From assembly GCA_013178155.1 (NCBI GenBank), contig JABLXH010000049.1:1-34906 (forward strand): DNA of 34,906 bases, written 5' to 3'. The stretch comes from Armatimonadota bacterium. Its GTDB lineage: Bacteria; Armatimonadota; Zipacnadia; Zipacnadales; UBA11051. The notes under the pieces are model-generated. The model did not search any database. It was not told where the DNA came from and saw nothing but the letters and a program-made list of their open reading frames with translations. The position numbers and the translations under genes were made by a program. Position 1 is the first letter of the stretch. Each line of letters opens with the position of its first letter. Shown in pieces: positions 20,168-29,053 of this stretch.

Positions 20168-20865
20168 CCGTGAGGATCACGGGGCTCCGCTTCCGATACC
20201 CCGACGGCACGGTGGCTCTGGACGGAGTGGACCTGGAGGTGCAGGAAGGCGAACGGGTCGCCCTGCTGGGCCCCAATGGCGCCGGCAAGTCCACCCTGCT
20301 GCTGCATCTCAACGGTCTGCTGCGCGGCGAGGGCGAGGTGCGTGTCCTGGGGCTACCGGTGCGTGGACGAGCGCTTCGGCAGCTTCGCCAGCAAGTGGGG
20401 CTGGTCTTCCAGAGCCCTGATGACCAGCTCTTCATGCCCTCGGTCTTTGATGAGGTGGCTTTCGGAGCGCTCAACGCTGGCCTGGGTCGCGAGGAAGTAC
20501 AGCGGCGCGTGCACCAGGCCCTGGCCGTGACAGGCATTGCTCACCTGGCGGAAAAACACCCCGACCATCTCAGCCTGGGGCAACGGAAGCGCGTGGCAAT
20601 TGCTTCGGTGCTGGTGACTGACAATCGGCTGCTGGTGCTGGATGAGCCCTCCGCCGGGCTCGATCCCGCCGGCCGAGCGGCCCTGCTGGAGCTGCTGCAC
20701 GCGCTTGGCTCCACAATGGTCGTCGCTACCCACGACCTGGAGTTCGCCAGCTCGCTCTGCACCCGAGCTATCGCCATGCGCGACGGCCGCGTCTACAGCG
20801 CTGGGACGGTGGCAGAGCTGGCTGCTGATCCCTCGCTCTTCGCTGTCTCTGAGGCAGCCCTCTAG
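20149..20865 (+). CDS. ecfA: ECF transporter ATP-binding protein EcfA
   Basis: This 238-aa ABC ATPase has Walker A GPNGAGKST (residues 41-49), Q-loop VFQSPDDQLF, signature LSLGQRKRVAIASVL, Walker B LLVLDEPSAGLDP, and switch His in VATHDLE. It resembles CbiO/EcfA ATPases that energise vitamin or metal import. Its signature reads LSLGQ rather than the canonical LSGGQ, a mild deviation. With only one A gene it would form a homodimer. ATG 20149 has GGGAGGGG about 8 bases upstream. Its stop shares CTAG with the stop of the opposing amidohydrolase gene. Confidence 0.95.
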   Translation: MPDTPLAVRITGLRFRYPDGTVALDGVDLEVQEGERVALLGPNGAGKSTLLLHLNGLLRGEGEVRVLGLPVRGRALRQLRQQVGLVFQSPDDQLFMPSVFDEVAFGALNAGLGREEVQRRVHQALAVTGIAHLAEKHPDHLSLGQRKRVAIASVLVTDNRLLVLDEPSAGLDPAGRAALLELLHALGSTMVVATHDLEFASSLCTRAIAMRDGRVYSAGTVAELAADPSLFAVSEAAL

Positions 20866-21638
20866 ACCCCCAGCACCCGCGCCGCATTGCCGCTCAGGAT
20901 CGCCTGCACCGCTTCCTCGCCAATAGGCGCCTCCCGGACCTTCGCCAGCGCCGTCTGGGCATACGAGAACGGCAGGTGGCTGCCGAAAACCAATCGCTCA
21001 CTCCCCACCTTGCTTACGAGGTCCTCGATGGCGTTCAGTGGTCCCTTGACGTAAGAGATCTCTGCCAGCACGTTGTCTCGTTGTGCCCCGTGCAGGAACA
21101 TCGGGATCTCCGCCGCTGTGGCCGTGCACAGCACCACGGTGGCGGGAGCCACGTTGCGCGCGAAGGCGACGGCCTTGTCCATCGCCAGCGCCGGAACCTT
21201 CATCAGGGGATGATGGTGCCGCTCGTCCTCCACCCGCACGGCCAGTAGCATCGGCCAGCCCAGCGCCGCAGCCTCGTCCACGAGAGCCACTGCCTGGTGC
21301 CCAGCCAGGTCAAAGCCGTGGTACGTCGGGTAGAGTTTGAGCGCTCGAAATCCCATGGCCGCGCAGTCCCGCAGGTCGCGCATTGCCCCCGGGTACTCGG
21401 GGTTGAGCACTGCCGCCGGCCGCACCTGTACTCCGCTCACCCCCTGCAGGTCCGCAATAAGCCGCTCGTTGGCCGGCTGCGGGCTGACATAGGTGATGGC
21501 CGGCGCGCTCCCGACGTAGGCGGTGGTGATGCCAAACCGCTTGAGGTCGGCGACCACCTCTGCCGCCGTCGTGATCGGGTACTCGCGGAAGGCATATGCT
21601 CCGGCGTCGCAGTTCAGGTCAATGATAGTGTCTGCCAT
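20862..21638 (-). CDS. Amidohydrolase-superfamily protein lacking metal ligands
   Basis: This 258-aa TIM-barrel protein is a paralogue of its upstream neighbour (21647..22378), with matching C-terminal NAARVLGV and NAARLLGI. The metal-binding positions differ. The HxH place reads DLNCD (Asn9, Asp11), the active-site MAHFGG region is VVLCTATA, and the late GTDMP is GSHLPF. It also keeps the amidohydrolase-like fold features PNPEYPGAMRDLRDCAAMG and ALKLYPTYHGF. The metal-dependent chemistry is therefore probably lost; a regulatory or structural role in a complex with its paralogue, or a metal-free reaction, is possible. GAGG lies 6 bases before ATG 21638 and the gap from the paralogue is 8 bases. 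Confidence 0.78.
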   Translation of the reverse strand: MADTIIDLNCDAGAYAFREYPITTAAEVVADLKRFGITTAYVGSAPAITYVSPQPANERLIADLQGVSGVQVRPAAVLNPEYPGAMRDLRDCAAMGFRALKLYPTYHGFDLAGHQAVALVDEAAALGWPMLLAVRVEDERHHHPLMKVPALAMDKAVAFARNVAPATVVLCTATAAEIPMFLHGAQRDNVLAEISYVKGPLNAIEDLVSKVGSERLVFGSHLPFSYAQTALAKVREAPIGEEAVQAILSGNAARVLGV

Positions 21639-21646
21639 CAGGAGCC

Positions 21647-22378
21647 TCAGATTCCCAGGAGTCGGGCCGCATTGCCGCCCAGAATGAGTGCCTTGTCGGT
21701 CTCGGAGATGTCGGCGTCGCGCACCTTGGAGAGAGTCAGCAGCAGGTCCGCTCCCGGCATGTCCGTACCCCAGATGAGCCGTTCCGCTCCGCACTCACGT
21801 ACCCACCCCTCCACCAGCCCGTTGTCGGTCATGGAGCCACTGGTATCGCCGATGACACCCGGGCAGTCCCGCACGGCGCGTAAGCCGTAGCGCCAGTCGC
21901 CGCCGAAGTGCGCCATCACCAGCTTCATCTCCGGGTACCGGCGCGAGAGCTCGGCCACGTGCAGCGGGTCGCTCTCACCTTCATACTGGCCAATGACCTT
22001 GTGCCACGAGTGCTGCAGCACCGGCCAGTTCCACTCCATGGCCCGTTCCACGATGGGGAAGACGCTGGGGTGCGTGCAGTAGCAACTGATCCATAGCTTC
22101 AGGCCCACCGCGCCCTGGTCGCGCCCCCGTTGCAGCTCCGCCATCGCTGCCTTGCCGTGAAGCGGGTTCACATACACGAAGGGCAGGTACAAGCCCGGGT
22201 AGTCGCGCGCGGCCTTGTAGCAACGGTCATTGAGACGCTTGACCTCATCCAGGTCGGGCACCGGGCTCGCCAGGCCACTGATGCAGACCTTGTCCACACC
22301 GTGGCGCTCACACTCGCGCGCCATGGCCTCCTCAGCGTCATCGCGAGCCCAGACGTGGGCATGGAAGTCAATGATCAT
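21647..22378 (-). CDS. Amidohydrolase-2 family metal-dependent hydrolase
   Basis: This 243-aa protein carries the family metal ligands: HxH at residues 6 and 8 (IIDFHAHVW), LQHSWH, VMAHFGG and WGTDMPG with the catalytic Asp. The set fits PF04909, which includes decarboxylases and lactone hydrolases. GLKLWISCYC and NPLHGKAAMAELQRG fit the barrel. No signal peptide is seen, so it is cytoplasmic. The substrate is unknown, though the carbohydrate context suggests a sugar-acid or lactone. ATG 22378 has GGAG 8 bases upstream; it lies 48 bases after the LamG protein gene. The partner at 20862..21638 is its degenerate paralogue. Confidence 0.85.
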   Translation of the reverse strand: MIIDFHAHVWARDDAEEAMARECERHGVDKVCISGLASPVPDLDEVKRLNDRCYKAARDYPGLYLPFVYVNPLHGKAAMAELQRGRDQGAVGLKLWISCYCTHPSVFPIVERAMEWNWPVLQHSWHKVIGQYEGESDPLHVAELSRRYPEMKLVMAHFGGDWRYGLRAVRDCPGVIGDTSGSMTDNGLVEGWVRECGAERLIWGTDMPGADLLLTLSKVRDADISETDKALILGGNAARLLGI

Positions 22379-22426
22379 GGCAGACACTCCAAGGCAACGG
22401 CGAGAATGGCCCCCGGCAAGCGGCAA

Positions 22427-25400
22427 TCAGAGCGGGCGGACGGTGACAGTCTGCTGGCCGGTCAGGGTCAGCGGCACCCGCAGGACGGCGTCGGCTCCGG
22501 CAGTGACCGTGCGACCGTCACCCAGGGCATATGCTGCCGCGGACCGGATCGGGAAAGCCCCGTCACGCAGCAACAGTGTTGCCGCTCCGTTCCCGTTCAG
22601 CGTGAGACGAACCTCCCCGGCGTCATACCGGCTCAGGACCAGGTTCACGGAGGACGCCTGCTCCAACTGCACCGGCACCCGCACCACGACGGCGCTCTCT
22701 TTCTCCGCCAGTCGCACCCGCGTGCGGACACCGGCTCGGTCGCAGGTCGTCGTAAACTCGGCCGGTATGGGCACGCCGACGCAGTTGTAGCGATGCACCA
22801 GGTGCAGATCATGGTCACCCGGCCAGGCATAGTCGCCCGAGTTCATGGTGACGATGCGCTCGCGCCCGCGCACCGCCCCGGCACGAAGGGCCTCCACCGT
22901 GATCGGGTACTGCTGCTGCGGCAACGACGGGTAGGTGAGCTGTCCCTCGCCATAGTAAAAGTACAGATTGCCCCAACGCAGCTTCTCGAGCACGTCGTCA
23001 TACACGTCAGCCTCGCTGCGGATGTTCATCGGGTTGCCCAGGGAGCAGGGGGTCTGTGCCAGGTGCACATCTGGTCCGGCGCGGCACTCCTGGTCCACGA
23101 TGATCGGTAGGGAGCCGATGGTGCGGGTCATCATGGTGTTATTGGCGATAGCCACCGCCCCCCTGGCGGCCATCCGGCGCACGAACTCGACCATCGAGGG
23201 CTGTGAAAGCCAGAGCACCGAGGCGTACTTGCGCTTGATGGTATGAGTCTGCGGGTCCATCTCGACCGTGCGGCCATCCCAGCGGTCATAGGTCCACGGC
23301 GATACGTAACCACAGAAGAACCCGTCCATAAACGCCCCATTGCAGCCGATGTCATCCACCATGCTGTCCACACTGCGCAGGAGGGCATCATGGAAGGAGT
23401 TGCCGGGAGTCGGGTAGTAGGCATACCACTTCCAACCATCGGCGCCCCGCTGCTTGCTGAAATACCCCCCGCTCATGTAGTCATAGGGCCAGACGAGGTG
23501 TTCACCGTCGGGGCCGAGGACACGGGAGTCCGGGAACACCTCCGTCGGCTTGTTGGTGGAGATGAGTGTGTGTGCCACATGGAACATCAGCTTGAGGTGC
23601 GGGTTGATCTCGCGGATGGCTTCAAACTCCGCGCGGATGCGTGCTCGTTCCTTCGGCAGCCACAGGAAGTCAATGCCCTCGATCTCGATCTCCGGGTCGT
23701 CCGCGACATTGGTCAGACAGCCGAAGGAGGCATAGAGCAGATTCCGCATCTCCGCATACTCACGGGAGAACGGTTGCCGGGGCACGAAAGCAAAGCCGCC
23801 CTCGACCGTGATCCGGTTGCGGTTCTCGTCGCGGCGGACCCGGTTGATGAAATCGAAGTAGTCGGTCGAGGCGACCGGGTAGATGGCCCACTCAAAGGTG
23901 TGGCTCTCGCCCGGCGGCAGGCCCAGCCGGTCATTGCGGAAGCCCAGCCGGTCGTCCTGGGCATAGACAGTGCTCTGGATGATGGCCAGATCGTCCAGCG
24001 GCAGGATGCCGATGCCGGTCTGCGCCCATGCCGCAAAGACCGAGGCGTTGTAGTTCTCCCTGCGCTCCCCGGTGGAGGGGTACCCTGCCACCCAGGATCG
24101 GTCATACGGACGGGCCCCGGCATTGAGCGCATGGTCGTAAATGATGCCGACGTCCTCAGCACTCTCGTTGTGTAGCACATCGGTGACGTACACCCGCTGC
24201 GGGTCGAGGCGCACCGTGCGCTTGAGGCTGTAGAGCCGGCTGTGCCCGCTCACCTCCCAGGTCCGCTCGCCGGTGCGCCGCACTTCCACTCGCCAGCCAC
24301 CCCTGGGCGCGGCGCCGGCTGTGAGCCGGTTGTCAGCATCGTTCGGGTACGAAAAGGAAGACTCAATCGGCCAGCGCACGCCGCGCGTCGTCAGGGTCAT
24401 GCCGCCGCCCGGGTGTACCTCAAGCGTGTAGGGCAGGTCCACGGGCCGGGCAACCGGCATCGGGATGCCGTCCGTAGGTGGCGCGACCTGCAGTTCGGGC
24501 GGCGGCCAACGGAACGGCGCCGCGCCGGTGTAGGTCTTGCCGTCGGGGGTCCTGAGCGTTCCGGACACCTCATAATCCCCGGCGGGCAACCCGCCCAGGT
24601 CCAGCGTGAGAGCCCATTTGCCAGATGGCGCGAGTGGGCTGTTGGTCTGCTGCAGCACCGGCTCAGCGCCGCCCTGACGGGTGACCACCGCCTGCAGGCT
24701 GCAGCCATCGGGGCGCCCAAAGACCTTGCTGGCGTCCAGCACGGCGACCATCCTGGGCTCCGTGCGCGAGGGGTACAGGCTGACCTGTACGCGGTCGAAC
24801 CACGCCGTCTCCACGCCGAAGCCGCCGGCCTCGGCCTTGTAGTGGGCGATGACCTCCGCCTGGGTCAGGGCACGGTTGTACACCCGAACATTGTCGAGCA
24901 TCCCACGCCAGAAGGAGGTGGGACCGTACCCCGGGTCGGTGGCGCTGGGGTTGGCCCGGGTCAGACCCATGAGGAAACTGCCGCCGTGAGCGATCTCGCG
25001 GGACTTGCTGGCGTGGCGGTCAACCTGCTGGTGGTTGACGTACACCGCCATCTCGGTGCCGTCGAAGGTCGCCACCACATGGCTCCAGACACCCACCTCC
25101 GCCCTTCCCTTGGCGTTGTTGCCGCCGCCGGAGATGTAGAACCAGAAGTTGCCGTCGCGGTAGTGGGTCAGCCCGTAGCTGTCAAAGTACTTGCCCATCA
25201 CCAGTGGCTCCGCGCCGGGTAGGGCGTCTGGCTTGATCCAGGCCTCTAGCGTCACGGCTCCAGTCAGGTCCAGACTGGCTCCGTTCCCACAGTCCACGTA
25301 GTCGTCTTTGCCATCCAGGGCCAGAGCATAGCCACCGCCGCGCGGCACGAAACGGGCTCCACCGCGCACCGCGCCATGGTTGCCTTCCCCGCTCTGGTCA

Positions 25401-25519
25401 TGCACGGTGGTCCCGGCGCCCTCGTCGAAGGTCCAGTACCCTACCAGGCCCTCCTCGGCGGCCATCAGCCCTGTGGCCATGGTGGCTGCCAGGAAGATGC
25501 TCGCGGCAACCCTAAGCAT
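22427..25519 (-). CDS. Exported LamG-domain protein with candidate glycoside hydrolase domain
   Basis: This 1030-aa protein has a signal peptide (about residues 1-20, LRVAASIFLAATMATGLMAA). A LamG/concanavalin-like domain (about 24-215) shows GLVGYWTFDEG, YALALDGKDDYVDCG, VTLEAWIKP, WSHVVATFDG and MLDNVRVYNRALTQAEVIAHY. A beta-rich middle (about 225-560) follows. The third region (about 620-900) looks like a TIM barrel with LMFHVAHT, WKWYAYYPTPGNSFHD, GCNGAFMDGFF (Asp732 a candidate nucleophile or acid), IIVDQECRAGP and LRWGNLYFYYGEG. A C-terminal beta domain ends it. I cannot place the barrel in a named GH family. GGAGG is 7 bases before ATG 25519. The 2-base gap after mnmA suggests co-transcription. 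Confidence 0.82.
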   Translation of the reverse strand: MLRVAASIFLAATMATGLMAAEEGLVGYWTFDEGAGTTVHDQSGEGNHGAVRGGARFVPRGGGYALALDGKDDYVDCGNGASLDLTGAVTLEAWIKPDALPGAEPLVMGKYFDSYGLTHYRDGNFWFYISGGGNNAKGRAEVGVWSHVVATFDGTEMAVYVNHQQVDRHASKSREIAHGGSFLMGLTRANPSATDPGYGPTSFWRGMLDNVRVYNRALTQAEVIAHYKAEAGGFGVETAWFDRVQVSLYPSRTEPRMVAVLDASKVFGRPDGCSLQAVVTRQGGAEPVLQQTNSPLAPSGKWALTLDLGGLPAGDYEVSGTLRTPDGKTYTGAAPFRWPPPELQVAPPTDGIPMPVARPVDLPYTLEVHPGGGMTLTTRGVRWPIESSFSYPNDADNRLTAGAAPRGGWRVEVRRTGERTWEVSGHSRLYSLKRTVRLDPQRVYVTDVLHNESAEDVGIIYDHALNAGARPYDRSWVAGYPSTGERRENYNASVFAAWAQTGIGILPLDDLAIIQSTVYAQDDRLGFRNDRLGLPPGESHTFEWAIYPVASTDYFDFINRVRRDENRNRITVEGGFAFVPRQPFSREYAEMRNLLYASFGCLTNVADDPEIEIEGIDFLWLPKERARIRAEFEAIREINPHLKLMFHVAHTLISTNKPTEVFPDSRVLGPDGEHLVWPYDYMSGGYFSKQRGADGWKWYAYYPTPGNSFHDALLRSVDSMVDDIGCNGAFMDGFFCGYVSPWTYDRWDGRTVEMDPQTHTIKRKYASVLWLSQPSMVEFVRRMAARGAVAIANNTMMTRTIGSLPIIVDQECRAGPDVHLAQTPCSLGNPMNIRSEADVYDDVLEKLRWGNLYFYYGEGQLTYPSLPQQQYPITVEALRAGAVRGRERIVTMNSGDYAWPGDHDLHLVHRYNCVGVPIPAEFTTTCDRAGVRTRVRLAEKESAVVVRVPVQLEQASSVNLVLSRYDAGEVRLTLNGNGAATLLLRDGAFPIRSAAAYALGDGRTVTAGADAVLRVPLTLTGQQTVTVRPL

Positions 25520-25521
25520 AG

Positions 25522-26703
25522 TCAGACCTCCGTGACGTCTTCTCCGCGGATAGTGCCGCCCGCCACCACATGGCCGTCCCGGCCGTCGTAGATCACGCCA
25601 TACTGCCCCGGTGCGACTACCGCGGGCTCGGCCAGCCGCAACTCCAGGCTTCTTGCCGCCGCGTTCCCTCCGACCACCGCGCAGTCCACCCTCCGCGACC
25701 GATAGCGCAGCATCACCTGCAGGTCTGTCCCCCAGCTCTCCGGCCACGCACCCTCCGGCCCATCACACCAGTTGACGTCCTCCAGCACCACGTCTCGCTG
25801 TCGCAACTCCTCGGCACAGACCACCACCAGCGTGTTGTCCGCGATACGCTTCTCGGCCACAAACCACGGGCCATCGGGGCTCAGGTTGAGGCCACGCCGC
25901 TGACCCACCGTGTAAGCATGAAGACCGCGGTGTCTCCCCACCACCCGGCCTTCGCGGGTCACGATTGGCCCAGGCCGGGCACCAAGACCGTGCCGCGCCA
26001 GGAAGTCCGCATGGCTTTCCGCCTGCACGAAGCAGATGTCCTGGCTCTCTGGCGTCTCTGCGGTGGGAAGCTCTGCCTCCCGGGCGAGCTGCCGCACCTC
26101 GTCCTTCGCCAGCCCACCTACCGGCAGCAGAATGTGTGCCATCGTGGTCTGGTTCAGGTGGCACAGTGCGTAGGACTGGTCCTTGGCGGCATCGCGACCC
26201 GGCAGCAGCCGAAAGACCGGGCCCTCGCCCTGGCAACCCTGCCGTTGTGGGGCATGGTCCTGTACTCCGCCGGCCGTGGTGGACCGGCAGATTCGAGCGT
26301 GATGCCCCGTTGCTACATACTCCGCTCCCAGTGACAGCGCCTTCTTCAGGAAGACCCCGAACTTCACATGGCGGTTGCACAGCACGCATGGATTGGGCGT
26401 TCGTCCTGCCGCGTACTCGGCTACAAACCGGCCGATCACGTACTCCTCGAAGGCTGAACGCAGGTCGAGGATGTAATGGGGCAAGCCCAACCGGTCACAT
26501 ACCCGGCGGGCGCGATAGACGCTCTCCAGCGAGCAGCAGAGTCGCTCGGCGTCCCCCTCTTGCGGGCCGACGCGGTCAAACAGCTTGAAGGTTATGCCTG
26601 TCACGTCGTAGCCGTCGCGCCGTAGCAGCCAAGCCGCCACCGAACTGTCTACCCCGCCGCTCATGGCCACGAAAACGCGCGGCTTGCGACCTGGAGTTGG
26701 CAC
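25522..26703 (-). CDS. mnmA: tRNA-specific 2-thiouridylase MnmA
   Basis: This 393-aa enzyme uses ATP and a sulfur relay to thiolate U34 of tRNA-Lys, -Glu and -Gln. It has the PP-loop VAMSGGVDSSVAAWLL, the first catalytic Cys in NPCVLCNRHVKFG, ATGHHAR, KDQSYALCHLNQ, and the second catalytic Cys in ESQDICFV. The C-terminal beta-barrel domain shows GQRRGLNLSPDGPWFV and APGQYGVIYDG. GTG 26703 gives a length near the norm of about 360-390 and has GAAGG four bases upstream; longer readings to 26805 run into hbd. It is a housekeeping gene placed in a carbohydrate-rich block. Confidence 0.96.
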   Translation of the reverse strand: MPTPGRKPRVFVAMSGGVDSSVAAWLLRRDGYDVTGITFKLFDRVGPQEGDAERLCCSLESVYRARRVCDRLGLPHYILDLRSAFEEYVIGRFVAEYAAGRTPNPCVLCNRHVKFGVFLKKALSLGAEYVATGHHARICRSTTAGGVQDHAPQRQGCQGEGPVFRLLPGRDAAKDQSYALCHLNQTTMAHILLPVGGLAKDEVRQLAREAELPTAETPESQDICFVQAESHADFLARHGLGARPGPIVTREGRVVGRHRGLHAYTVGQRRGLNLSPDGPWFVAEKRIADNTLVVVCAEELRQRDVVLEDVNWCDGPEGAWPESWGTDLQVMLRYRSRRVDCAVVGGNAAARSLELRLAEPAVVAPGQYGVIYDGRDGHVVAGGTIRGEDVTEV

Positions 26704-27613: not shown

Positions 27614-29053
27614 CTAACCGCCCGTCTCCCTGGTGGCCAGGTCACCGAACCGGTTGGCGATGGCCAGCGCCGGGTCCAGGGGCACCTCCACCCGTTGCAG
27701 GTCCGCCGGAATACTGATGATCGGGGTCGGCCGTACCGACTTGCCCGCAAACTGCGGCAACCATTCCCGCTGTGCCTCCAGCATCTCGCTGACCATCTCT
27801 CGCACTTCCCGGAGGGTACAGCGCGTGCTGGTCAGCGGGTCCATGGCGACCGCGTGCACGATGTGCTCGGGGTCAGCGGTCAGGCCCGCCTCGACAGCCA
27901 GTAGCTGCACAGTCACATTGCTTTGGTTCAGCGCCGCGCACTGCGGCGGCAGGCTCCCCACCCGTGCCGGATGCAGGCCCTGACGGTCCACGTACACCGG
28001 CACCTCCACGCAGCACCCTGCCGGCAGGTTGTCTATGTAGCCGTCATTGCGGACGTTGCCATTGAGCCGGAAGACCCTGTCGGTCTCGTGCGCCTCGAGG
28101 ATGTACGAGCAGTATTCCACCGACCGCTCCCCGAGTGCCGTGCTCTCGGTGTCCAGGTAGTTGACGTGGGCGTACTTCTGCTCCAGCATCCGCCCAAACT
28201 TGTAGTAGGCCCCACTCTCCCCCCCGAAAGCAGGTTCGTCGCAGTACAACTCCAGCGCTCGTTGCGATGACCGGAACCACGGCACATACTCCGAGAGGTG
28301 CCCCGTGGACTCGGTCATGAAGTAGCCAAAATGGCGCAGCACCTCCCCCCGCACCTTCTCGCTGGCGTAGTACTCAGGCTTCTCGAAGTTCGCCCGGAGC
28401 TTCGGGTACAGGTCCTCACCTGTCTCCCGGTCGGTCAGCTTCAGGAACCAGGCCATGTGGTTGATGCCCGCGCAGAGAAACTCCACCCGGTCCTTCGGCA
28501 GGTCCACATAGCGGCTGATGAGGTCCAGGGTCGTCTGCACGCCGTGGCAGAGGCCGATGAACTGGATACGGTCTGTCATGCGCCCCAGCGCCAGACAGCA
28601 GGCCGCCATGGGGTTGGTGTAGTTCAGCAGCAGCGCCTCGGGACACAGCTCCTCCATGTCCCGCACCAGCCCCTCCAGCACTGGCATCGAGCGCAAGCCC
28701 CGGAACACGCCGCCCGGTCCCAGTGAGTCGCCGATACACTGGTCCACCCCGTACTTCAGCGGGACCTCGTAATCAATCTGGTAGGCATCCAGCCCGCCGA
28801 CCTGCACCATACAGATAACATAGTCCGCCCCGTCCAGAGCCTCCCGTCGGTCGAGGGTGCTGGTGACCGTAGCCGGCAGGTCGTTCTCCGCCACCACACG
28901 CTTCAGGAAAGCCTCCATCTGGTCCAGCTTCGGTTTGGTGCGGCTCATCAGACGGAGTTCGCAGTCCCGCAGCTCCGGCGTAGCAAAGATGTCCATGGCC
29001 AATGTCTTGGCAAAGACCTGACTACCCGCGCCAATCATCGCAATCCTGGGCAT
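27614..29053 (-). CDS. GH4-family glycosidase (alpha-galactosidase/alpha-glucuronidase-like)
   Basis: This 479-aa NAD- and Mn-dependent glycosidase has the N-terminal Rossmann motif IAMIGAGSQVFAKTLAMDI, LLNYTNPMAACC with a metal-site Asn, GLCHGVQ with the metal-ligand Cys, and GINHMAWFLKL with the metal His. The family uses redox-assisted elimination rather than a classical nucleophile. The tetrapeptide after the Cys separates subgroups: CHSV marks alpha-galactosidases, CHG-type is associated with alpha-glucuronidases. Here it is CHGV, so an alpha-glucuronide or related substrate is a fair guess. No signal peptide, so substrates must be imported. GAGGAGG is about 7 bases before ATG 29053. Confidence 0.93.
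   Translation of the reverse strand: MPRIAMIGAGSQVFAKTLAMDIFATPELRDCELRLMSRTKPKLDQMEAFLKRVVAENDLPATVTSTLDRREALDGADYVICMVQVGGLDAYQIDYEVPLKYGVDQCIGDSLGPGGVFRGLRSMPVLEGLVRDMEELCPEALLLNYTNPMAACCLALGRMTDRIQFIGLCHGVQTTLDLISRYVDLPKDRVEFLCAGINHMAWFLKLTDRETGEDLYPKLRANFEKPEYYASEKVRGEVLRHFGYFMTESTGHLSEYVPWFRSSQRALELYCDEPAFGGESGAYYKFGRMLEQKYAHVNYLDTESTALGERSVEYCSYILEAHETDRVFRLNGNVRNDGYIDNLPAGCCVEVPVYVDRQGLHPARVGSLPPQCAALNQSNVTVQLLAVEAGLTADPEHIVHAVAMDPLTSTRCTLREVREMVSEMLEAQREWLPQFAGKSVRPTPIISIPADLQRVEVPLDPALAIANRFGDLATRETGG

Follow-up and report, generated by a model that had tools for sequence, protein, structure and literature searches.

The gene at 22427..25519 on the minus strand of an Armatimonadota contig raises the question of what kind of protein is encoded behind the LamG domain at the start of its product. 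A preliminary description of the window (the whole stretch of DNA analysed, 34,906 nucleotides) had read the product as an exported LamG protein with a possible new glycosidase domain, lying in a sugar-catabolic block. The gene (1030 aa) runs from an ATG at 25519 to a stop at 22427; this start is supported by a Shine-Dalgarno GGAGGT read from the sequence at 25526..25531 on the same strand, 6 nt 5' of the ATG and overlapping the last codons at the 3' end of mnmA. The mnmA stop (TGA, 25524-25522) and the ATG are separated by 2 nt, and the LamG gene, which lies downstream of mnmA, is apparently co-transcribed with it. Directly downstream are two adjacent Amidohydro_2 genes (20862-21635 and 21647-22381, minus strand), both of which probably form one operon with the LamG gene. 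The sugar-catabolic setting held for the wider surroundings, where GH4, GFO/IDH/MocA and DUF4432 genes sit 2-7 kb upstream, but not for the immediate neighbours, which are mnmA and the two amidohydrolases. The GH4-family gene (Glyco_hydro_4 and 4C, 27614-29053, minus strand) belongs to the same strand block and adjoins a 3-hydroxyacyl-CoA dehydrogenase gene.

The N-terminus (MLRVAASIFLAATMATGLMA-AEEG) reads by eye as a Sec signal peptide (residues ~1-21, 25457..25519), in agreement with the export proposed earlier. It is followed by a LamG/ConA-like domain (residues ~25-225, 24845..25447), recognised by Pfam as PF13385 Laminin_G_3 over residues 69-223 (E 3.4e-29, 102.4 bits against a cut-off of 27.6) and by a sequence search of the PDB, in which chain 4qvs matched residues 28-223 (E 4.5e-13); the identification as a LamG protein was thus correct. 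Laminin_G_3 was the sole domain found when the whole protein was searched against Pfam, and the whole-protein NCBIfam search gave only a sub-threshold TafC match (42.9 bits, where the cut-off is 410) confined to the LamG part, over which the PDB search likewise found mainly ConA/LamG-type chains. The connecting stretch (residues ~240-350, 24470..24802), searched separately, had no convincing match of its own and, judging from its sequence, is probably an Ig-like beta domain. Residues 351-1030 matched no Pfam or NCBIfam model.

This last part of the protein is not an orphan, because 100 distinct sequences of this family were found, with a mean pairwise identity of 29% and a minimum of 17%. Several paralogues of residues ~340-1015 are encoded in the same genome, at least one family member is present in 34 of 151 genomes (that of the window and those of relatives), and 34 of 291 Armatimonadota genomes matched a barrel profile at E 1e-10 or better. 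Copy numbers reached at least seven per genome, a lower bound since seven was the number of candidates scored. The scan of public-genome contigs gave no matches with the single protein as query; seeded with an 11-sequence alignment, it added 64 loci from Armatimonadota (including Candidatus Zipacnadia), Planctomycetes, Hydrogenedentota, Lentisphaerae, Verrucomicrobia and WOR-3, as well as from one Polyangiaceae MAG and one MAG labelled Thermoplasmata, such labels being possibly wrong for single contigs. The homologues of highest identity (54-62%) came from MAGs of Armatimonadetes and of Zipacnadia, the class to which the closest named relatives belong, and this by itself makes an Armatimonadota origin of the window very likely. 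When 49 members were searched over residues 351-1030 against Pfam (2025) and NCBIfam (2026), no convincing model match was obtained and no GH family among them, as the preliminary description had anticipated. These proteins make up a large multi-copy family, new to the two libraries searched, and are a candidate new GH family.

Some members stand side by side in pairs in Planctomycete and Victivallales genomes (L066, L113 and L118), and contig CAIUPP010000075 carries several copies. A close Zipacnadia homologue (L085/L017, G031:C9:41092-43061) is broken into two overlapping frames, by either a frameshift or an assembly error, and L013 and L018 are likewise spread over more than one frame. A Pfam scan of 95 ORFs neighbouring the homologues detected no conserved partner and no recurrent pointer to a substrate; rhamnosidase, fucosidase, GH127, pectate lyase, RhaT and UxuA were each seen once or twice. 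Accessory domains in the relatives included LamG (14/46) and CBM9 (5/46), and one homologue in alignment A4 had an alpha/beta-hydrolase domain resembling an esterase or Peptidase_S9; its bearer is likely L078:4861-8877, which has ~380 extra C-terminal residues. The LamG, CBM9 and esterase/Peptidase_S9-type modules fit work on polysaccharides.

Structure prediction and comparison with GH barrels, which had been proposed as the way to check the possible glycosidase domain, gave a predicted GH-type fold. AlphaFold models of residues 351-1030 (49 sequences; pLDDT 95.4, pTM 0.93) and of the barrel alone (100 sequences; pLDDT 95.8, pTM 0.92) predicted with high confidence a beta-sandwich domain with the invariant Arg434 (residues ~364-549, 23873..24430), a (beta/alpha)8 barrel as putative catalytic domain (residues 572-908, 22796..23806) and a less conserved C-terminal beta-sandwich (residues ~909-1030, 22430..22795), all on the minus strand. 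The flanking parts were called beta-sandwiches because of their all-strand content and their match to FpGalNase, the Flavonifractor plautii galactosaminidase. According to DSSP on the model, a linker helix (554-564) carries Arg562, and the eight barrel strands lie at about 575-579, 594-599, 643-648, 728-731, 789-793, 806-810, 852-855 and 873-879. The barrel-like pattern noticed earlier at residues ~620-900 agrees with the model but was slightly short in extent, since the predicted barrel covers ~572-908 and the conserved unit spans ~364 to 945 or beyond, and on the model the putative catalytic unit would be a three-domain module rather than a lone barrel.

The GAFMDGFF motif highlighted earlier has its Asp at exactly residue 732 (23324..23326, minus strand), inside the predicted barrel and directly after strand 4. 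Arg434, Arg562, Asp732, Asp748 (23276..23278, in the YDRWDG loop after strand 4) and Pro872 were invariant in 100/100 sequences. Asn793, which ends strand 5, was conserved in 99/100, as was Glu811 (VDQE, 23087..23089), which lies directly after strand 6; the one exception to Glu811, L081 (FYLIESCQ), has a Glu one column off, which we read as an alignment slip that would make this residue effectively 100/100. Two invariant carboxylates, Asp732 and Glu811, thus stand at the C-terminal ends of predicted barrel strands. That Asp732, Asp748 and Glu811 stay unchanged down to 17% identity is hard to explain without catalysis.

Export, a GH-like module of three domains and the invariant acids of strands 4 and 6 are most simply explained by a retaining alpha-glycosidase, and we consider it likely that this protein is an exported carbohydrate-active enzyme from a family of such glycosidases that is unclassified in Pfam and NCBIfam, with LamG as an accessory domain. 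Residues ~364-1030, with the two sandwiches and the barrel, would form the catalytic module and would belong to a large superfamily of retaining enzymes acting on alpha-glycosides. The proposed hydrolysis is a double displacement with a net retaining outcome; Asp732, which closes strand 4, would be the nucleophile and Glu811, which closes strand 6, the acid/base, while Asp748, the proposed subsite residue, Asn793 and Arg562 would shape the pocket. The N-terminal LamG domain is probably a binding module for polysaccharide or surface material that keeps the enzyme near its substrate. The glycosidase proposal of the preliminary description is thereby strengthened by the model, the structural and profile comparisons and the conservation, catalysis itself being what we infer from them. 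D732, D748 and E811 define precise mutants, which makes the catalytic hypothesis directly testable.

When the whole module was compared with the PDB using foldseek, three FpGalNase entries came first (E 1.5e-18 to 2e-17, TM 0.52, 11% identity), the match covering all three domains; nearly all the later matches were GH31 or GH36 enzymes, with GH31 alone at ranks 4-24. With the barrel alone FpGalNase was again first (E 4.5e-8, TM 0.51), and next came GH66 dextranase, cycloisomaltooligosaccharide glucanotransferase, lacto-N-biosidase, GH13, GH36, GH168, GH31 and GH129. Most such barrel enzymes are retaining, act on alpha-linked substrates and have an Asp nucleophile on strand 4, lacto-N-biosidase being an exception. 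TM values of about 0.5 place the module in this superfamily and not beside any characterised enzyme.

Searching the PDB with family profiles (hmmsearch) gave weak matches over strands 3-4 to GH168 (9nhf, 8ya6) and to GH114-annotated barrels, with the Asp of DGVFMD in 9f9v and 8rg5 aligned on Asp732 (the best E was 2e-5, and most were no better than 0.002); the same search with alignment A2 gave only noise. Profile-profile comparisons were then made with hhalign between the family and comparison alignments built from the same phylum. DUF6259 (PF19773) gave 93-94.5% probability over strands 3-4 (E 8e-8 to 3e-7), its invariant Asp of G-[VI]-Y-[IM]-D aligning to Asp732 although only ~120 columns were confidently aligned, and GHL15 (PF14885) gave 92-94% over strands 3-5 (E 1e-7 to 6e-7). 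GH36 (30 proteins) gave 0.4-23%, GH31 2-4%, GH129 less than 3% and GH97 less than 1%; GH114 also stayed below 1%, with a weak profile of 7 loci only. Reversed-template controls reached at most 0.5%, and the all-against-all yardsticks at the same setting were 98% for GH36-GH31 (E 5e-14), 94% for GH36-GH97 and 95.5% for GH36-DUF6259. The distance to DUF6259 and GHL15 is thus similar to that between GH97 and GH36, indicating a relation at the superfamily level and not membership. The significant profile alignments anchor Asp732 on strands 3-4 and not Glu811, whose proposed role is based on its conservation and its strand position; an alignment of Glu811 on a conserved GHL15 Glu was dropped, as that column is not conserved in the GHL15 alignment.

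Scanned members had no match in Pfam to GH31, GH97, GH129, GH114 (PF03537), GHL15 or the DUF6259 HMM, the profile-profile relation to the last two notwithstanding. Neither of the outcomes that the preliminary description had set against its own proposal, a clear match to an established GH family or a non-catalytic fold, appeared. DUF6259 is strongly expanded in the phylum, with 18 matches in the window's genome and presence in 43/61 sampled genomes. In profile comparison it aligned with GH36 across 491 columns at 95.5% probability and with GH129 across 554 columns at 94.6%, and it has an invariant Asp482 and Glu530 (L193 numbering); its likeness to GH36 and GH129 makes it look, from its sequence, like an unclassified and so far uncharacterised GH family itself.

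Several other readings of these data were considered. The family could be a very divergent GH36 outlier, similar to FpGalNase, and would then fall into a clan GH-D family that already exists: FpGalNase was the top structural match twice, the order of beta-sandwich, barrel and C-terminal sandwich is the same, a weak profile trace was found (P 9e-4), and the first alignment placed Asp732 opposite the nucleophile of GH36. Against this, Melibiase (PF02065) matched 0/49 members even at E 1, and the profile probability was at most 23%, whereas GH36 and GH31, an accepted clan pair, reached 98% at the same setting. In clan GH-D the catalytic acid of strand 6 is Asp. The family has the strand-4 Asp but a Glu on strand 6, whereas FpGalNase needs its Asp532 (PMC11762096), and we regard the outlier reading as very unlikely. 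A recently numbered CAZy family that is still missing as a model from Pfam 2025 and NCBIfam 2026 is unlikely too, if less so. CAZy gains families regularly. GH191, for instance, was defined only in 2025 (PMC12054363), but for the present family there was neither a Pfam or NCBIfam model nor, among the structures solved by April 2026, a close one.

The remaining readings concern the activity. The GH31, GH66 and GH13 structural matches include transglycosidases, such as the cycloisomaltooligosaccharide glucanotransferase, so that the barrel, though glycosidase-like, might be that of a superfamily member with transglycosidase, lyase or isomerase activity and perform no hydrolysis; nothing specific speaks against this, but hydrolases dominate the structural matches, and we hold it to be quite unlikely. 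Multi-copy LamG proteins can be structural, which would suit a catalytically dead barrel serving in carbohydrate binding or as a structural element. Three acids unchanged across 100 sequences down to 17% identity argue against such a barrel, to which we give very little credence.

Returning to the retaining alpha-glycosidase reading, we see about an even chance that this protein is the first member of a new GH family in CAZy, one that is multi-copy in Armatimonadota genomes, occurs also in PVC-like bacteria, and combines the three domains typical of clan GH-D with an Asp/Glu pair of GH114/GH168 type on strands 4 and 6. If true, the family might form a clan of its own or link clan GH-D with the GH114/GH168-type barrels. 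At least 100 mostly large proteins decorated with LamG or CBM9 and missed by the domain libraries would leave a considerable gap in how the degradation of polysaccharides is annotated. A survey of Zipacnadia with dbCAN calls reported that extracellular hydrolysing CAZymes are uncommon (PMC10290634), and unrecognised families such as this one could partly explain that result.

Compared with known systems, the family shares features with several groups. GH97 and GH129 consist of a beta-sandwich plus a barrel with an Asp nucleophile and a Glu acid, and likewise have sandwich, barrel and Asp/Glu, although their profile probability was below 3%. The DUF6259 motifs YIDQA, HGHP and TTEcNAE are absent from the new family. 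FpGalNase (PDB 8x1b, 9awt), which is assigned to GH36, has the same order of three domains and is nearly inactive without Asp463 or Asp532 (PMC11762096). Asp463, the residue conserved with the GH36 alpha-galactosidase (PMC11762096), is taken as the counterpart of Asp732, while the second essential acid differs, Asp532 in FpGalNase versus Glu811 here, just as clan GH-D and GH31 use Asp as catalytic acid; in addition, profile similarity to GH36 is too weak for membership. The GHL15, GH168, GH114 and GH191 barrels, for which no N-terminal beta-sandwich has been described, unlike in the new family, have the D-G-V-F-x-D motif in common with it. In GH168 and GH191 the Asp is followed by a Glu about 70 residues on, with Asp167 as predicted nucleophile and Glu237 as acid/base in the GH168 structure 9nhf (70 apart; PMC12210190) and Asp156/Glu225 in TmGH191 (69 apart; PMC12054363); in the new family Asp732 and Glu811 are 79 residues apart.
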